From: Pseudanabaenaceae cyanobacterium SKYG29
Lineage (GTDB): Bacteria; Cyanobacteriota; Cyanobacteriia; Pseudanabaenales; Pseudanabaenaceae
Assembly (NCBI GenBank): GCA_025055675.1
Contig: JANWWT010000006.1
Span: 120,839-184,838 of the forward strand
Direction of reading: 5' to 3'
DNA: 64,000 nucleotides
In this document: piece by piece, positions 37,424 to 61,762 of the stretch
Position numbering within the stretch: position 1 is the stretch's first letter
How the letters are laid out: every line of letters begins with the position of its first letter
Made by a program: the position numbers and the translations under genes
The notes under the pieces: model-generated
What the model was told of the DNA's origin: nothing
Databases searched by the model: none
Seen by the model: the letters and a program-made list of their open reading frames with translations, nothing else

Positions 37424-38053
37424 ATGACAACTAACTGGGATGAATTATTTGAGCAGTTGAAGCACCCCAATCCCCATCTGCGGGAGCGAGCAATGGCAGC
37501 GATCGTGGAACAACAAGATGAAACCACTATCCCGCGCCTCATGGCATTATTGGGAGAAACGGACACCACCTATCGCCGCGCAGCGGTAAAAACGATCGGG
37601 GCAATTGGCTACGAGGCTGTACCCTTTTTGGCGGATTCCCTCTTAAACAGCAGTGATGTCACCGTGCGAGGTAGTGCAGCAAAGGCGTTGGCACAGGTAG
37701 CCGTCAACTTTGGCGCCGAGGGTTTTCCTGAAGTAGGCATTAGAGCCTTAGAACAAGCCATGCAAGACCTCAACCCCGTTGTGCATATTGCTGCTGTTAT
37801 GGCACTGGGAGAAATTGGCACACCCGTTGTCGATGTCCTCATCCGCGGGTTGGAAACTACCGATAATCCTGCTTTGGCAGTCTCCATCGTGGGGGCACTG
37901 GGTTCGATCGGGGATGAACGGGGGGTAGCAGTCCTGACCCGCCTAATTGAAGCTGAAACCACTGATAGCTACGTCCGTGAGGCTGCTGTCAGTTCCCTCT
38001 CCCGTTTGGAATTAATTCAGTCTCGCTTGACCCCTAATAGACCGGTAGGGTGA
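37424..38053 (+). CDS. HEAT-repeat protein of CpcF/CpeZ/NblB-like type
   Basis: The 209-residue all-helical product is built from HEAT repeats, for example RRAAVKTIGAIGYEAVPFL, HIAAVMALGEIGTPVVDVL and VSIVGALGSIGDERGVAVL. The size and repeat spacing fit CpcF, CpeZ and related phycobilisome lyase/chaperone or degradation proteins, but also IaiH-like proteins, so the partner cannot be named. CpeZ acts with CpeY, and a CpeY-like protein is at 6.7 kb. It ends in a 20-base overlap with the convergent sasA gene. Confidence 0.82.
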   Translation: MTTNWDELFEQLKHPNPHLRERAMAAIVEQQDETTIPRLMALLGETDTTYRRAAVKTIGAIGYEAVPFLADSLLNSSDVTVRGSAAKALAQVAVNFGAEGFPEVGIRALEQAMQDLNPVVHIAAVMALGEIGTPVVDVLIRGLETTDNPALAVSIVGALGSIGDERGVAVLTRLIEAETTDSYVREAAVSSLSRLELIQSRLTPNRPVG

Positions 38054-39125
38054 CATGGAAACTCGATCCCCCTTTGGGGGGACTGTCCACCCAGATTTTG
38101 CCGTAGTGGGCACGGATGATACGTTTACAGACCGCCAGACCAATACCATACCCTTCCGTTTGTTGATCCCGACTGAGGCGGAACTGTTCCTCAAAAATTT
38201 TTTCCCGCAACTCAGCGGGGACACCTGGACCTGTATCTGTAACGGTGATTTCCACCTTTTGCGATGTACGATGGAGAGCGGTGACCTGAATCTTGCCCCC
38301 CACAGGCGTATATTTAATGGCGTTATCCATCAAGTTAGCTAACACCTGCTGTACCCTTTCCCCATCAGCATAAACATAGGGCAAATCGTTGGGAATGTCC
38401 GTGACCAAATCCTGTTGTTTTTCCTTCAATTTATGTAGCAGGTAATAATCTTCCACCACCCGCCGACAGACTTCACTGATATTAGTGCGTTGGGGATGAA
38501 TGGGAAAGTGAAAGACCTCCCCGCGCCCTGACTCCAAAATTTCTGTAATCATATTGTCTGCTGTGCGTACCTGTTTGCGGGCATGCAGCAAAACCTGTTC
38601 CCGTTGCTCAGGGTCTAACTTCTCCCCACTGTTGTCCAGCGTCTCCAAAGCCAAGGAAATCGCTGTAATCGGATTGCGCAAGTCATGGGCAAGCATCGCA
38701 ATAATGCGGTCTTTGAAATGCAGTTGCTGTTGCAGATAATTCTTCTCCTGCGTCAGGCGGAAAACTTCATCTGTCATCTTAATTATTTCTGCCGATCGAT
38801 CGATTTGATTCTTTCTGTCAATGTTATTTGACTGCAAATTCTGGAGGGCTAACTGCCAACTATGCCAGGAATTCCTGAGTTGCACCATCAAACTCTTGCC
38901 CGCAATGGTCTGACGGGGGGCAGGATAAATTTTTAACAGGGCAGGGGTGAGGACAACGCGAAAATGTTCTGCCAGATAGGGCTGCCCCGTCACATCGATC
39001 ACTTGCAATTCCGCACTCTCTGGTGGACAACCCTGCAAAAACTCCTCTACTGCCTTCACCACCTCGAAGGAACTGGGACGATCGTCTATAAACAATATGA
39101 GTTGGATAGGAGAACTTACCTGCAC
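38034..39125 (-). CDS. sasA: Circadian output histidine kinase SasA
   Basis: SasA reads the KaiC phosphorylation state and phosphorylates RpaA, timing global gene expression. The 363-residue product starts with the KaiB-like thioredoxin-fold sensor (LILFIDDRPSSFEVVKAVEEFL, VLTPALLKIYPAP, about residues 1-95). HisKA follows with phospho-His in AHDLRNPI (near residue 145). HATPase_c has LANLMDNAIKYT, VTDTGPGVP and YGIGLAVCKRIIRAHYG. Length and domain order are standard. No kai genes are in the window. Confidence 0.95.
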   Translation of the reverse strand: MQVSSPIQLILFIDDRPSSFEVVKAVEEFLQGCPPESAELQVIDVTGQPYLAEHFRVVLTPALLKIYPAPRQTIAGKSLMVQLRNSWHSWQLALQNLQSNNIDRKNQIDRSAEIIKMTDEVFRLTQEKNYLQQQLHFKDRIIAMLAHDLRNPITAISLALETLDNSGEKLDPEQREQVLLHARKQVRTADNMITEILESGRGEVFHFPIHPQRTNISEVCRRVVEDYYLLHKLKEKQQDLVTDIPNDLPYVYADGERVQQVLANLMDNAIKYTPVGGKIQVTALHRTSQKVEITVTDTGPGVPAELREKIFEEQFRLSRDQQTEGYGIGLAVCKRIIRAHYGKIWVDSPPKGGSSFHVTLPVY

Positions 39126-39181
39126 ACCGCTAATCCTGACCAGTTTAACCTTATTTTAACTTAATTTGCCTTGCTCAGTCT

Positions 39182-39210
39182 AGGGGAAAAATAGCGTAAA
39201 TTCTAACGCT
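39182..39210 (-). terminator. Candidate rho-independent terminator after the Cache-PP2C gene
   Basis: On the minus strand AGCGT-TAGAATTT-ACGCT is followed by ATTTTTCCCC, a short 5-bp hairpin with a T-tract. The 5' arm overlaps the last codons and the stop of the phosphatase gene. The stem is short, so this is a weak prediction. Confidence 0.35.
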
Positions 39211-41305
39211 GTTTCATTACTAAAAGGGTAATATCATCATACACTTTGTGCTTACCAATGTGCTTTTTCACATCGTAAATGACAGCATTGTTAATCTCCT
39301 GTGCCGAACATCCAAGATGATCCCTGACCACCCCTACTAACCGATCGATACCGTAGTATTCTCCCCGATCGTTTTCCGCTTCCGTAATTCCATCTGTGTA
39401 CAAAACTACCACATCTCCCTGCTGTAGTTTCACTTCATAAACAGCGAGAAAATCCCTAATTTCTGGCTCTAAACCAATGGGAAAACCCAGGTCTATTGTG
39501 TCAATTCTCTCTATATTGCCATCCGATCGGACAATTATCACCTCCTCATGCTGCCCGACAATTCTTAAGTCACCTCTATCATATTCCAGGAGAGCCAAAG
39601 TTAGATTCTTATCCGACCGCATGCGTTGTACGTTGTGCCAAATCACTTGATTGATGTTCTGTAAAACCTCCTCAATGTTGCCATTACTCTGGCTAGCTAA
39701 AGCGCGTACAGCTGTTTGAGCCATTAACATAATCATCCCACTTTCCAGTCCATGCCCTGTGACATCGCCAATGCCAATTTTAATCTTACCGTTGTGGGAA
39801 AAAACGTCATAATAGTCACCCCCTACTTCATCAGCAGGCATAATAAATTCAGCAATTTCTAGGTCACAAATGTGGTGTAGCTCCTGTCCCCTGGGTAAGA
39901 TCATCTGCTGGATTTTGCGTGTTGCTGCTAGCTCAGAAGTAAGACGTAAATTTTCCTCCTTTAACTTTTCACTGAGTAAACGAATTTCCCGATTTGCCTC
40001 TTGTAACTCTTGGGTGCGCTCCTCTACTTTTTCCTCTAGGTCAGTTACTAAAATTTGTATATCCTCTGCCATTTGATTGAAAGCAGTTTCTAGCTGCTGA
40101 GTTTCCATTGTACCTGCAATCGTTACCTTTTGCATCAATTGACCTTCTGCTAGTCTTTTGGCTGCCTTTGCCAAATTGAGAATGGGTTGGCTCAGCCATT
40201 CAGCTGTAATAATACCTGTAACGACAGCAATTGTTGATGTAATAGCTAAAATAATCAGAGTAGTGTAAAAATTTTGCTCAACCCTCACCATAAAATCTGA
40301 CTCAGGGAACACTGTCACAATTAACCAGTCGATGCTATCTTTGTCTTGAAATGGTTGCACTTGTACAAAAAACTGTTCTCCCTTAAATTTGTGGGCAAAA
40401 GTTGATAACCCTTGCACCGTCGGCAATTTATCCTGCAAGTAGATGCCGATTTCTCTAATTAGGGGGTGGGCACTTTCCTTTGCTAACAGGCGCTCTAAAT
40501 TCTCTCCCTCACCCCTAGTAGTTGGTTCAGGGGTAGACGTGGAAACTAATCTGCCCGATCGTTCCACAATGAAAGCAATGCCTGTTTTCCCAACAGACAG
40601 GGAAGATAAAAACATGTTGACCTCTCGCGGTAAGAAATAATCAACAGCACAGACTCCCAGCAGTTTGCGATCGGAATTGTAGACAGGAAAACTAGCAGTT
40701 ACTGTCGGTAACAGTGTGCCAAAATCCAGATATATTTCACTCCAGGTAGGTTTGCCTTTTTGCTTAGCAGCCGTGTACCAGGGACGACGACGAGCATCAA
40801 AGGGTTTGTGGGTGCTCCTCAAAGGCAGTAATTCTGCCACCTCACCCCTATCATTTAGTCTATAGTTTTCCTTAAGGTATTTGGTTTTGGCATTACTGTA
40901 GCTTAGTACCTTTGTGTCTATATCATCAGCCAAACGCCCAACGCCAAAAGAGGAACCATCTTTTTCGGCACCGCAGTACACAAAACTAATCCCAGGATAA
41001 ACTATAATTTGTTGCCAAAATAAATTTTTACCCCTGGAGGCATTTAAGACATCAATATCACCATTCAGGAAGGCTTCGGCATTGAGTTGGTTGATGACAT
41101 CGGGAGTTTCTGTGTAACTACGCAATTTACCCACAATTCTCGTATTAACTTCCTGCTGGAACAACACCGCTACTTCCTGGACTGATTTTTGGCCCGCCCG
41201 CAGGGAAGTAACACCTACGATAACGACTGCGACTAGGAGTTGTAAGGCGAAAGGAACGACTATAACATTCCTCAGTGACTGTTTTTGAATAATTTTTCCT
41301 AGCAT
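39203..41305 (-). CDS. Cache-HAMP sensor with SpoIIE-type PP2C phosphatase output
   Basis: A 700-residue membrane sensor. Transmembrane helices lie near residues 15-35 and 347-370, bracketing a periplasmic dCache-like ligand domain (IYLDFGTLLPTVTASFPVYN region). HAMP (about 371-425) and a coiled coil (about 430-470) lead to a PP2C (SpoIIE/RsbU) domain: GGDYYDVF (near 492), IGDVTGHGLESG, VLYTDGITEAEND and YDDITLLV all keep their metal-binding Asp residues. Such phosphatases usually reset anti-anti-sigma (STAS) proteins. The PP2C part is very close to that of the Amt fusion at 59.6 kb. It starts at ATG 41305. Confidence 0.93.
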   Translation of the reverse strand: MLGKIIQKQSLRNVIVVPFALQLLVAVVIVGVTSLRAGQKSVQEVAVLFQQEVNTRIVGKLRSYTETPDVINQLNAEAFLNGDIDVLNASRGKNLFWQQIIVYPGISFVYCGAEKDGSSFGVGRLADDIDTKVLSYSNAKTKYLKENYRLNDRGEVAELLPLRSTHKPFDARRRPWYTAAKQKGKPTWSEIYLDFGTLLPTVTASFPVYNSDRKLLGVCAVDYFLPREVNMFLSSLSVGKTGIAFIVERSGRLVSTSTPEPTTRGEGENLERLLAKESAHPLIREIGIYLQDKLPTVQGLSTFAHKFKGEQFFVQVQPFQDKDSIDWLIVTVFPESDFMVRVEQNFYTTLIILAITSTIAVVTGIITAEWLSQPILNLAKAAKRLAEGQLMQKVTIAGTMETQQLETAFNQMAEDIQILVTDLEEKVEERTQELQEANREIRLLSEKLKEENLRLTSELAATRKIQQMILPRGQELHHICDLEIAEFIMPADEVGGDYYDVFSHNGKIKIGIGDVTGHGLESGMIMLMAQTAVRALASQSNGNIEEVLQNINQVIWHNVQRMRSDKNLTLALLEYDRGDLRIVGQHEEVIIVRSDGNIERIDTIDLGFPIGLEPEIRDFLAVYEVKLQQGDVVVLYTDGITEAENDRGEYYGIDRLVGVVRDHLGCSAQEINNAVIYDVKKHIGKHKVYDDITLLVMKQR

Positions 41306-59563: not shown

Positions 59564-61762
59564 ATGGGTCTGGAACTTGTCTCTGCTGATGTCTTCCTGG
59601 CAGCTTTATCCCGCGTACCCCTGGGGACGAAAGGCAACGTGTTAGATACTCTGTGGTTAGTTTTGGCAGCGGGGTTGGTGTTTTTAATGCAAGCAGGCTT
59701 TATGTGCCTGGAGTCGGGTTTGACCCGCTCGAAGAACAGCATCAATGTGGCTGCCAAAAATGCCGCTGATTTTGCCATATCTGTGGCTCTGTTTTGGTCT
59801 TTAGGCTATGGGCTGATGTTTGGTTCTAGTGCGGCGGGGTGGCTGGGAGTTTCCCAATTTTTTGTCTCTCCTGGGACTGACTTTAAGCTGAGTGCTTTTT
59901 TTTTGTTTCAGTTGATGTTCTGTGGCACGGCGACAACTATTGTGTCAGGGGCAGTGGCAGAGCGCTTAAAGTTTCTTGCTTATCTCATCATCAGCAGCTT
60001 GTGTTCAGGGCTAGTTTACCCTCTCTATGGCCATTGGGTGTGGAATGGCGTTGATCAGGGACAGGCGCTGGGCTGGCTAGGCAAATTGGGGTTTATTGAT
60101 TTTGCTGGCTCAACGGTAGTACATAGTATTGGCGGTTGGATTTCTCTAGCGGTGCTGGTGATCATTGGCCCACGGCAGGGACGATTTGACGATCGGGGCA
60201 GGGTACAAAAACTCCACAGCTCCAATCTCCCCATGGCAGTTTTGGGCATGCTGCTATTGTGGTTTGGTTGGTTGGGCTTCAATGGCGGCAGTACCCTGGA
60301 ATTCAATGCCATGGTTGCCCCCATCATTCTCAATACAGTTATGGGGGGCGGTGGCGGCATGTTGATGGGTATTTGGTTGAGCTATCACCGCTACCGCATT
60401 TTGGATATGGATTTTTTAATCAATGGTTGTCTGGCGGGTCTGGTGGGGGTGACAGCCAATTGTTTTGCTATCTCCACGGGTTCAGCCTTTGTGATCGGCG
60501 CGATCGGGGCGGCGGTCATGGTTTTAGTCGCCGACCTGTTGGAGCACTACCGCATCGATGATGCTGTGGGTGCAATTCCTGTGCACCTGGGGGCAGGGGT
60601 GTGGGGGACGCTAGCATTGCCCTTGTTTGGCGATCGGGAAGTAATTAACACAGGTTTGTCAGTCTGGCAACAGTTGGGTGTTCAGACTTTAGGCATAGTC
60701 GTGGCGGGGGTGTGGGCTTTTGGCTTGACCTATCTGGTTTTGCGTTTGATTCATCCCCACTATCCCCTACGGGTAACGAAGCAGGAAGAGGAAAAGGGGT
60801 TAAACTGGGCAGAACACAAGGCAAAGACAGAAGCTTACGACCTTGTTCAGGTTATGGAAGCCCACGCGGAGGGGCAAGACCTGCATCGGCGCGCACCCGT
60901 AGATACCTTTACGGAGTTGGGACCAATCGCTCTGCGCTACAACCGTGTCATGGATGCCCTGCAGAGTGCCCAGCAGGAAATCCTAGCCCTCAATGACAAG
61001 TTAAAGTCAGAAAATCTCAAACTAGCGGCGGAACTAGACCTCACCCGTCAGCTACAGCAGATGATCCTACCCAAGGAGGAGGAGCTAAAAAGTATTGCCA
61101 ATTTAGATATTTCAGGGTTTATGTCCCCAGCAGAAGCCGTGGGGGGTGACTACTACGATGTGCTGCGGCAGGGGGAGAGAATCAAAATTAGCATTGGCGA
61201 CGTTACAGGGCACGGTATAGAAAGTGGGGTATTGATGATCATGGCGCAGACAGCAATTAGTACCATGTGTCATGCGGCGGAAGTTGACCCTAGGCGATTT
61301 TTCCAGATTGTCAATCGGGTGCTCTACGAAAACGTGCAGCGCATGGGTTCAGACAAAAGTATGACCCTGATCGTTTTGGATTACCAAGACCGTACCCTAC
61401 ATATCAGTGGTCAGCATGAAGAAGTTATTGTCCTGCGCCACCATGGGGAAATAGAACGGATTGATACCATTGACCTGGGTTTTCCCGTGGCCCTTACAGA
61501 TGACATCACCGACTATGTGCAGCAATACCAAGTTACGCTTGCTCCTGGGGATATTGTTGTGCTCTATACCGATGGCATTACAGAGGCAGAGAATCCGCAC
61601 AAGGAGTTATTCGGCATCGATCGGCTGTGCCAGGTGCTGCGGGAGAACGCTACTAAAACCGCCAATCAAATCAGAGCTGCCATCATCCAGGCTGTGGATG
61701 CGTTCATTGGCAGTAACCAGGTTTACGACGACATCACCCTTGTGGTGATCAGGCAACTCTGA
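59564..61762 (+). CDS. Ammonium transporter (Amt) fused to SpoIIE-type PP2C phosphatase
   Basis: Residues about 20-410 are a full Amt/Rh channel: FMCLESGLTRSKNSINVAAKN, the Phe-gate region (QLMFCGTATTIVSGAVAER), FAGSTVVHSIGGW with the first twin His, and DDAVGAIPVHLGAGVWGT with the second. A cytoplasmic linker (GLNWAEHKAKTEAYDL) and a coiled coil (about 480-520) lead to a PP2C domain (about 525-732). Its GGDYYDVL, IGDVTGHGIESG, LYTDGITEAEN and YDDITLVV keep the metal Asp residues. Both parts look functional. It follows a phosphodiester glycosidase by six bases and has its own ATG. The likely role is ammonium sensing, discussed in the findings. Confidence 0.93.
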   Translation: MGLELVSADVFLAALSRVPLGTKGNVLDTLWLVLAAGLVFLMQAGFMCLESGLTRSKNSINVAAKNAADFAISVALFWSLGYGLMFGSSAAGWLGVSQFFVSPGTDFKLSAFFLFQLMFCGTATTIVSGAVAERLKFLAYLIISSLCSGLVYPLYGHWVWNGVDQGQALGWLGKLGFIDFAGSTVVHSIGGWISLAVLVIIGPRQGRFDDRGRVQKLHSSNLPMAVLGMLLLWFGWLGFNGGSTLEFNAMVAPIILNTVMGGGGGMLMGIWLSYHRYRILDMDFLINGCLAGLVGVTANCFAISTGSAFVIGAIGAAVMVLVADLLEHYRIDDAVGAIPVHLGAGVWGTLALPLFGDREVINTGLSVWQQLGVQTLGIVVAGVWAFGLTYLVLRLIHPHYPLRVTKQEEEKGLNWAEHKAKTEAYDLVQVMEAHAEGQDLHRRAPVDTFTELGPIALRYNRVMDALQSAQQEILALNDKLKSENLKLAAELDLTRQLQQMILPKEEELKSIANLDISGFMSPAEAVGGDYYDVLRQGERIKISIGDVTGHGIESGVLMIMAQTAISTMCHAAEVDPRRFFQIVNRVLYENVQRMGSDKSMTLIVLDYQDRTLHISGQHEEVIVLRHHGEIERIDTIDLGFPVALTDDITDYVQQYQVTLAPGDIVVLYTDGITEAENPHKELFGIDRLCQVLRENATKTANQIRAAIIQAVDAFIGSNQVYDDITLVVIRQL

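Follow-up and report, generated by a model that had tools for sequence, protein, structure and literature searches.

The gene at positions 59564-61762 (plus strand) of the window, the whole 64,000-nucleotide stretch of cyanobacterial DNA analysed here, raises the question of what an ammonium channel joined to a phosphatase is for. A preliminary description of the sequence had reported an ammonium transporter (Amt) domain fused in one gene to a SpoIIE-type PP2C domain, and its coordinates proved to be exact. The gene is a single open frame of 732 aa with an ATG at 59564, a stop codon at 61760-61762, and zero internal stops or frameshifts, and both domains are complete within this uninterrupted frame. 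A frame check for two genes, singled out beforehand as a way to overturn the fusion, was run and returned one frame. Two genes, a frameshift, or an assembly artefact are ruled out by this frame and by the continuous helix that joins both domains in the predicted structure. As independent relatives also have the identical co-linear Amt-PP2C order, the probability of an artefact is negligible. The start codon lies 6 bp past the stop of a co-directional upstream gene (AMIN/NAGPA-type phosphodiester glycosidase). At the other end, the gene and a convergent MFS gene abut stop to stop, with recO behind the MFS gene. Elsewhere in the window (38034-41305, minus strand), a dCache-HAMP-PP2C phosphatase gene adjoins a KaiB-HisKA-HATPase gene with the layout of a SasA-like clock kinase.

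The Amt domain covers residues 30-421 (59651-60826, plus strand), as delimited by a Pfam profile, residue alignment, and predicted structure. It matches Pfam Ammonium_transp (PF00909) with an E-value of 7e-112 and 374 bits against a cut-off of 23, scores 387 against a cut-off of 343 for TIGR00836, and has 11 TM helices in the predicted structure. E. coli AmtB, Ks-Amt5, and 8qj3 were used as references for the residue alignment. The twin His (H187/H341) and the Phe gate (F119/F239), which had been noted earlier, are present, and the selectivity filter (W160/S243) is intact as well. In Ks-Amt5, two intramembrane ammonium ions are reported to be bound via Q24, E31, N47, D50, T51, T109, and T112 (PMC5764959). 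The window protein has Q43, E50, N66, D69, F70, T125, and S128 at these positions, with T112 changed to Ser (S128) and T51 to Phe (F70). According to the alignment, the site residues Q43, E50, N66, D69, T125, and S128 are encoded within 59690-59947 (plus strand). The Ks-Amt5 pore is blocked by F27, Y30, and F34 (PMC5764959); the corresponding residues here are F46, L49, and L53, and only F27 is kept. Because two of the three pore-closing residues are Leu, the window Amt may still transport. Since Sd-Amt1 also differs at these positions (F, F, N), the block is a trait of Ks-Amt5 that is not known to define the class.

A comparison of 145 aligned Amts was used to relate the acidic site to fusion. 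The E+D pair of this site occurs in 121/121 fused Amts, which are those with a C-terminal extension of at least 60 aa, and in 5/24 plain Amts, which are those without one (Fisher p 1.5e-19, a statistic that ignores relatedness). An acidic ammonium site unique to sensor Amts is ruled out by the plain Amts that keep it. The window's genome also encodes two plain Amts. One of them (G000:C1:498629-499894), which aligned fully across this position, has Val at the place of the acidic-site Asp, and the second has Ile there in a smaller alignment.

Behind the channel lies a linker at residues 423-465 (60830-60958, plus strand), delimited by the predicted structure, a sub-threshold Pfam HAMP match, and alignment to HAMP-PP2C proteins. 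It consists of a helix (423-437), a connector, and then a continuous helix of residues 452-500 (60917-61063, plus strand; predicted structure) that runs into the PP2C domain. The match to Pfam HAMP (PF00672) reaches 16 bits (E 0.016) and is under the cut-off of 25. Residues 436-466 align with residues 366-396 of the HAMP-PP2C protein L182, located in the Pfam HAMP match of that protein (357-395), and the HAMP-to-PP2C spacing is equal in the window protein and in HAMP-PP2C proteins. The linker is best described as HAMP-like, short of a HAMP domain assignment.

The SpoIIE/PPM-type PP2C domain occupies residues 537-730 (61172-61753, plus strand) by its Pfam match (PF07228, E 3e-39, 135 bits against a cut-off of 25), and the fold starts near residue 514. 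The metal-binding Asp residues, already reported as intact, are D529, D546, D670, and D723; all four are present and are invariant in 28/28 sequences (27 Amt-PP2C proteins and one neighbouring PP2C). Degenerate pore or metal sites, a check set beforehand, are ruled out by the residue alignments. An AlphaFold2 model built from a 39-sequence alignment (mean pLDDT 88) has the Amt bundle of 11 TM helices, the two-helix linker, the 49-residue helix, and the PP2C fold in this order. In Foldseek searches against the PDB, the Amt half retrieved 'Receptor Sd-Amt1' in its OFF and ON states at the top, followed by Ks-Amt5, and the best structural match of the PP2C half was the PP2C domain of SiaA (6k4e). 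Membership of the SiaA family (NCBIfam NF038263) was rejected, with 56 bits against an equivalog cut-off of 700 and a match in the PP2C part only.

A database search for the Amt-PP2C architecture, as suggested in the preliminary description, returned co-linear proteins in other cyanobacteria, SAR11, and a Pirellulales MAG. Judging from such co-linear relatives in several lineages, the arrangement is no chance join. Among 386 cyanobacterial genomes sampled across the phylum, six others carry the fusion, and their proteins are 843-862 aa long and have extra sequence between the halves, with a PAS domain in the one scanned. Many Pelagibacteraceae encode full-length co-linear Amt-PP2C proteins with 36-40% identity to the window protein, usually as a tandem pair, and the protein of the Pirellulales MAG has 42% identity to it. 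The Amt-linker unit, about 50-60% identical in cyanobacteria, carries a variety of outputs in its relatives: HK (HisKA/HATPase), HK-REC, HK-REC-cyclase, PAS-HK, PAS-GGDEF-EAL, MCP, and PP2C. In other relatives, the tail is short and has no recognised domain. In a planctomycete MAG (L077:7971-10034), an Amt is fused to an MCP signalling domain (Pfam MCPsignal, E 2e-29); this protein would be a predicted ammonium-channel chemoreceptor.

The PP2C domains of the SAR11 and cyanobacterial fusions form separate supported groups in a tree. One ancestral Amt-PP2C common to both was rejected for the PP2C half by the AU test (p = 2e-5), a result that is strong but model-bound, with some long branches, and a common clade for the cyanobacterial fusions was not rejected (p 0.46). 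Because the joint grouping is rejected, the layout is taken to have arisen at least twice. Within the family of the window's genome (38 genomes, 8 genera), amt-pp2c is found in 1/38, the window's genome only, and its absence from congeners places it outside a conserved core pathway. The congener G408 has a clean empty site, where 81 bp stand against 2296 bp in the window and the flanks are adjacent. At this empty site (L229; G408:C1:252500-256000), the two flanking genes abut stop to stop. The GC3 of amt-pp2c is 0.57, and that of its neighbours is 0.52-0.58. Gain by transfer appears more likely than loss in all other family members.

In 5/6 of the other cyanobacterial Amt-PP2C loci, an slr1658-type kinase gene and an slr1659-type STAS gene are directly downstream on the same strand. 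These five loci (L169-L173) come from five genomes of two genera in one family. The kinase belongs to the slr1658 family and is weakly SiaB-like, and the STAS protein belongs to the slr1659 family and has the motif NSSG; profiles were used to assign the families at L169 and L171, and the assignment at L170, L172, and L173 follows from similarity. Both genes are absent at the sixth locus, L174. No kinase and STAS pair was found beside cyanobacterial Amts with other sensor layouts (short, Amt-kinase, and Amt-cyclase), most of which had flanks of only 1-8 kb. At L169 (6713-8071), and also at L170, L172, and L173, a second PP2C gene lies directly upstream of the Amt-PAS-PP2C gene in an operon-like run; its product has 453-459 aa and an N-terminal part without a Pfam match.

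In SAR11, an RsbW-like kinase gene and a gene for a canonical STAS protein (MDSSG) are located about 1.3 kb from Amt-PP2C at 36/39 of the loci with enough upstream DNA. The pair is on the strand opposite to Amt-PP2C, with pilin-like genes between, and the gene order is kept although the RsbW at these loci has diverged to 50% identity. The cyanobacterial and SAR11 neighbourhoods represent few lineages (one family each) and are not independent draws. A STAS gene was found in 18/19 SAR11 genomes searched, with exactly one in 17. Amt-PP2C itself is present in 14/147 genomes of the SAR11 family, many of which are probably incomplete. At L060 (8001-12810), and similarly in L061-L123, the tandem Amt-PP2C genes have a small heavy-metal-associated-type ORF between them and adjoin RsbW/STAS and type IV pilus genes. 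In the second copy, the filter Ser (S227 in Ks-Amt5) is replaced by Ala. According to a 2025 phosphoproteome study of strain HTCC1062, RsbW (SAR11_0057) is the only Ser/Thr kinase, and none of the annotated phosphatases is predicted to have protein substrates (PMC13198564). For this missing phosphatase, the Amt-PP2C genes located close to rsbW-like genes in related SAR11 genomes are clear candidates.

The window itself contains no STAS or kinase gene near amt-pp2c. The genome has one slr1658-slr1659 pair, at L176, which is unlinked to amt-pp2c. It also has 10 SpoIIE domains (nine besides that of amt-pp2c), at least four small STAS proteins (the slr1659-type protein and three further ones), and at least three RsbW/SiaB-like kinases (the slr1658-type kinase and two RsbW-like ones). 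Because there are several of each, the STAS/kinase partner of the window protein is a candidate and not an assignment. The preliminary description had proposed a STAS anti-anti-sigma protein as the target, a suggestion backed by the neighbourhoods in two other lineages but not by that of the window gene. Likewise, the co-occurring STAS gene that it had expected was found at the loci of relatives and in the unlinked pair of the genome, but not beside the window gene. In the same genome (L139:5775-6559), the gene for an RsbW-like kinase has a 4-bp overlap with that for a STAS protein which lacks the usual Ser-Ser-Gly site (SRGVG); a plain Amt gene (L139:7600-9072) is about 1 kb away.

With a probability of roughly 0.6, the window protein is an ammonium-receptor phosphatase of a STAS partner switch, with the slr1658-slr1659 pair as candidate partner. 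The computational results establish one intact gene, undamaged catalytic and binding residues, the fold, homologues that share its layout, and the partners in their neighbourhoods; the ligand response and the STAS substrate are what we infer. External NH4+ would be taken up at the selectivity filter of the Amt and would bind within the membrane, close to the twin-His pair, where the acidic Q/E/N/D/T/S site first described in Ks-Amt5 is located. The resulting change may pass from the last TM helix through the HAMP-like linker to the continuous helix 452-500, which would govern how the C-terminal PP2C domains pair and how active they are, in the manner of the RsbU helical linker. The PP2C domain would then remove phosphate from a serine of a small STAS protein and oppose an RsbW/SiaB-like kinase; in the window's genome, this kinase/STAS pair is most plausibly of the slr1658-slr1659 type. 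External ammonium could thereby alter gene expression or activity. Such coupling is not straightforward, because Amt proteins are trimers and SpoIIE-class phosphatases work as dimers.

A more general proposal is that Amt-PP2C proteins form a recurrent class of receptor phosphatases, gated by ammonium and driving partner switches, which arose independently in cyanobacteria and SAR11. In SAR11, they may provide a PII-independent ammonium input and the missing phosphatase of HTCC1062. This proposal is tentative, with chances a little short of even. If true, a phosphatase output on a STAS partner switch would link external ammonium to regulation by a new route. Amt-PP2C would also be a defined case for studying the control that a trimeric channel exerts over an enzyme class working as dimers, and its position by RsbV/RsbW in SAR11 makes the phosphatase gap of HTCC1062 (PMC13198564) directly testable.

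Other uses of an Amt-PP2C protein are conceivable. A working ammonium channel might employ its PP2C domain, or the localisation of this domain, for the control of transport, for example by dephosphorylating a channel-regulating phosphoprotein, instead of signalling external ammonium to gene expression. Every transport residue is intact, Leu is found at two of the three Ks-Amt5 pore-blocking positions, and structural similarity to true transporters is high too. Nevertheless, a self-regulated transporter seems unlikely, as fused Amts retain the sensor-site Asp without exception, relatives carry unrelated kinds of signalling domain as outputs, two plain Amts are already available in the genome, and the kinase/STAS neighbours of relatives point to signalling. 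The PP2C domain may also act on a substrate other than a STAS protein, such as a nitrogen-control phosphoprotein (PII) or a SiaC-like cyclase regulator. In cyanobacteria, the PP2C PphA dephosphorylates PII, and SiaA is the closest named NCBIfam relative of the PP2C part, although far below the cut-off (56 bits vs 700). However, PphA is a group I PP2C, unlike the SpoIIE/RsbU group, and a kinase and a STAS protein with a Ser-Ser-Gly phosphosite are neighbours in two lineages, so a non-STAS substrate is rather improbable.

A further explanation is that the gene was recently acquired and has no settled role, being a lineage-specific fusion without a coupled pathway in its host. The presence of the gene in 1/38 family genomes, the clean empty site of the congener, and the absence of linked partners are in line with this idea. 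We consider it very unlikely, since the catalytic and binding residues are intact, the frame is undamaged, the GC3 is close to that of the neighbours, and the host has an slr1658-slr1659 pair. Reception of ammonium by the Amt half and dephosphorylation of a STAS protein by the PP2C half is the reading that we prefer.

The Amt half is assigned to the signalling branch of the Amt family. The signalling role that the preliminary description had ascribed to it, in a proposed transceptor for nitrogen status, is supported by named receptors as its nearest solved structures, by the conserved ammonium site, and by the interchangeable outputs in the family. Its nearest solved relative is Sd-Amt1 of Shewanella denitrificans (PDB 8qj3, 'Receptor Sd-Amt1 (OFF-state)'; 8qj4, ON-state; 8qpf). 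The Amt and linker align with Sd-Amt1 over residues 27-475 of the window protein (E 9e-125), with 47% identity and a TM-score of 0.95 across the Amt, and the E/D acidic site is common to both. Sd-Amt1 is 644-661 aa long, and the sequence search found no match to the PP2C half in it. Ks-Amt5 of Kuenenia stuttgartiensis (PDB 6eu6, PMC5764959) is likewise an Amt receptor whose C-terminus carries an enzymatic output, and it too has an intramembrane two-ammonium site and a 20-residue loop 5. It differs in its histidine kinase output, in that a HAMP is unreported (PMC5764959), and in a pore closed by F27/Y30/F34, where the window protein has F46, L49, and L53.

The kinase and STAS families beside cyanobacterial Amt-PP2C are those of slr1658 and slr1659 of Synechocystis (NCBIfam NF052618 and NF047705), which are known from an iron-starvation-recovery mutant and from pgr5 control (PMC7555055). 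The literature searched does not connect slr1658/slr1659 with ammonium or with a receptor phosphatase. A search for 'ammonium transporter', 'SpoIIE', and 'fusion' together found no paper, and a wider search of titles and abstracts found no description of an Amt-PP2C fusion; the architecture may nevertheless have been mentioned earlier.

PPM phosphatases of the SpoIIE/RsbU class act on STAS proteins (PMC11418112). The window protein shares with RsbU, SpoIIE, and SiaA the PP2C fold, the four metal Asp residues, and a helical linker ahead of the domain. The sensors of these phosphatases are PAS, GAF, receiver, or HAMP domains (PMC12143880), or Cache as in the example in the window; Amt is absent from the list in PMC12143880. 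RsbU is switched by the ordering of crossing linker helices, and the same authors propose that phosphatases, kinases, and GGDEF enzymes exchange sensors as modules (PMC12143880). The order of Amt, HAMP-like linker, and 49-residue helix fits this scheme. Kinase outputs are already known for Amt receptors, and PP2C represents a new output variant.
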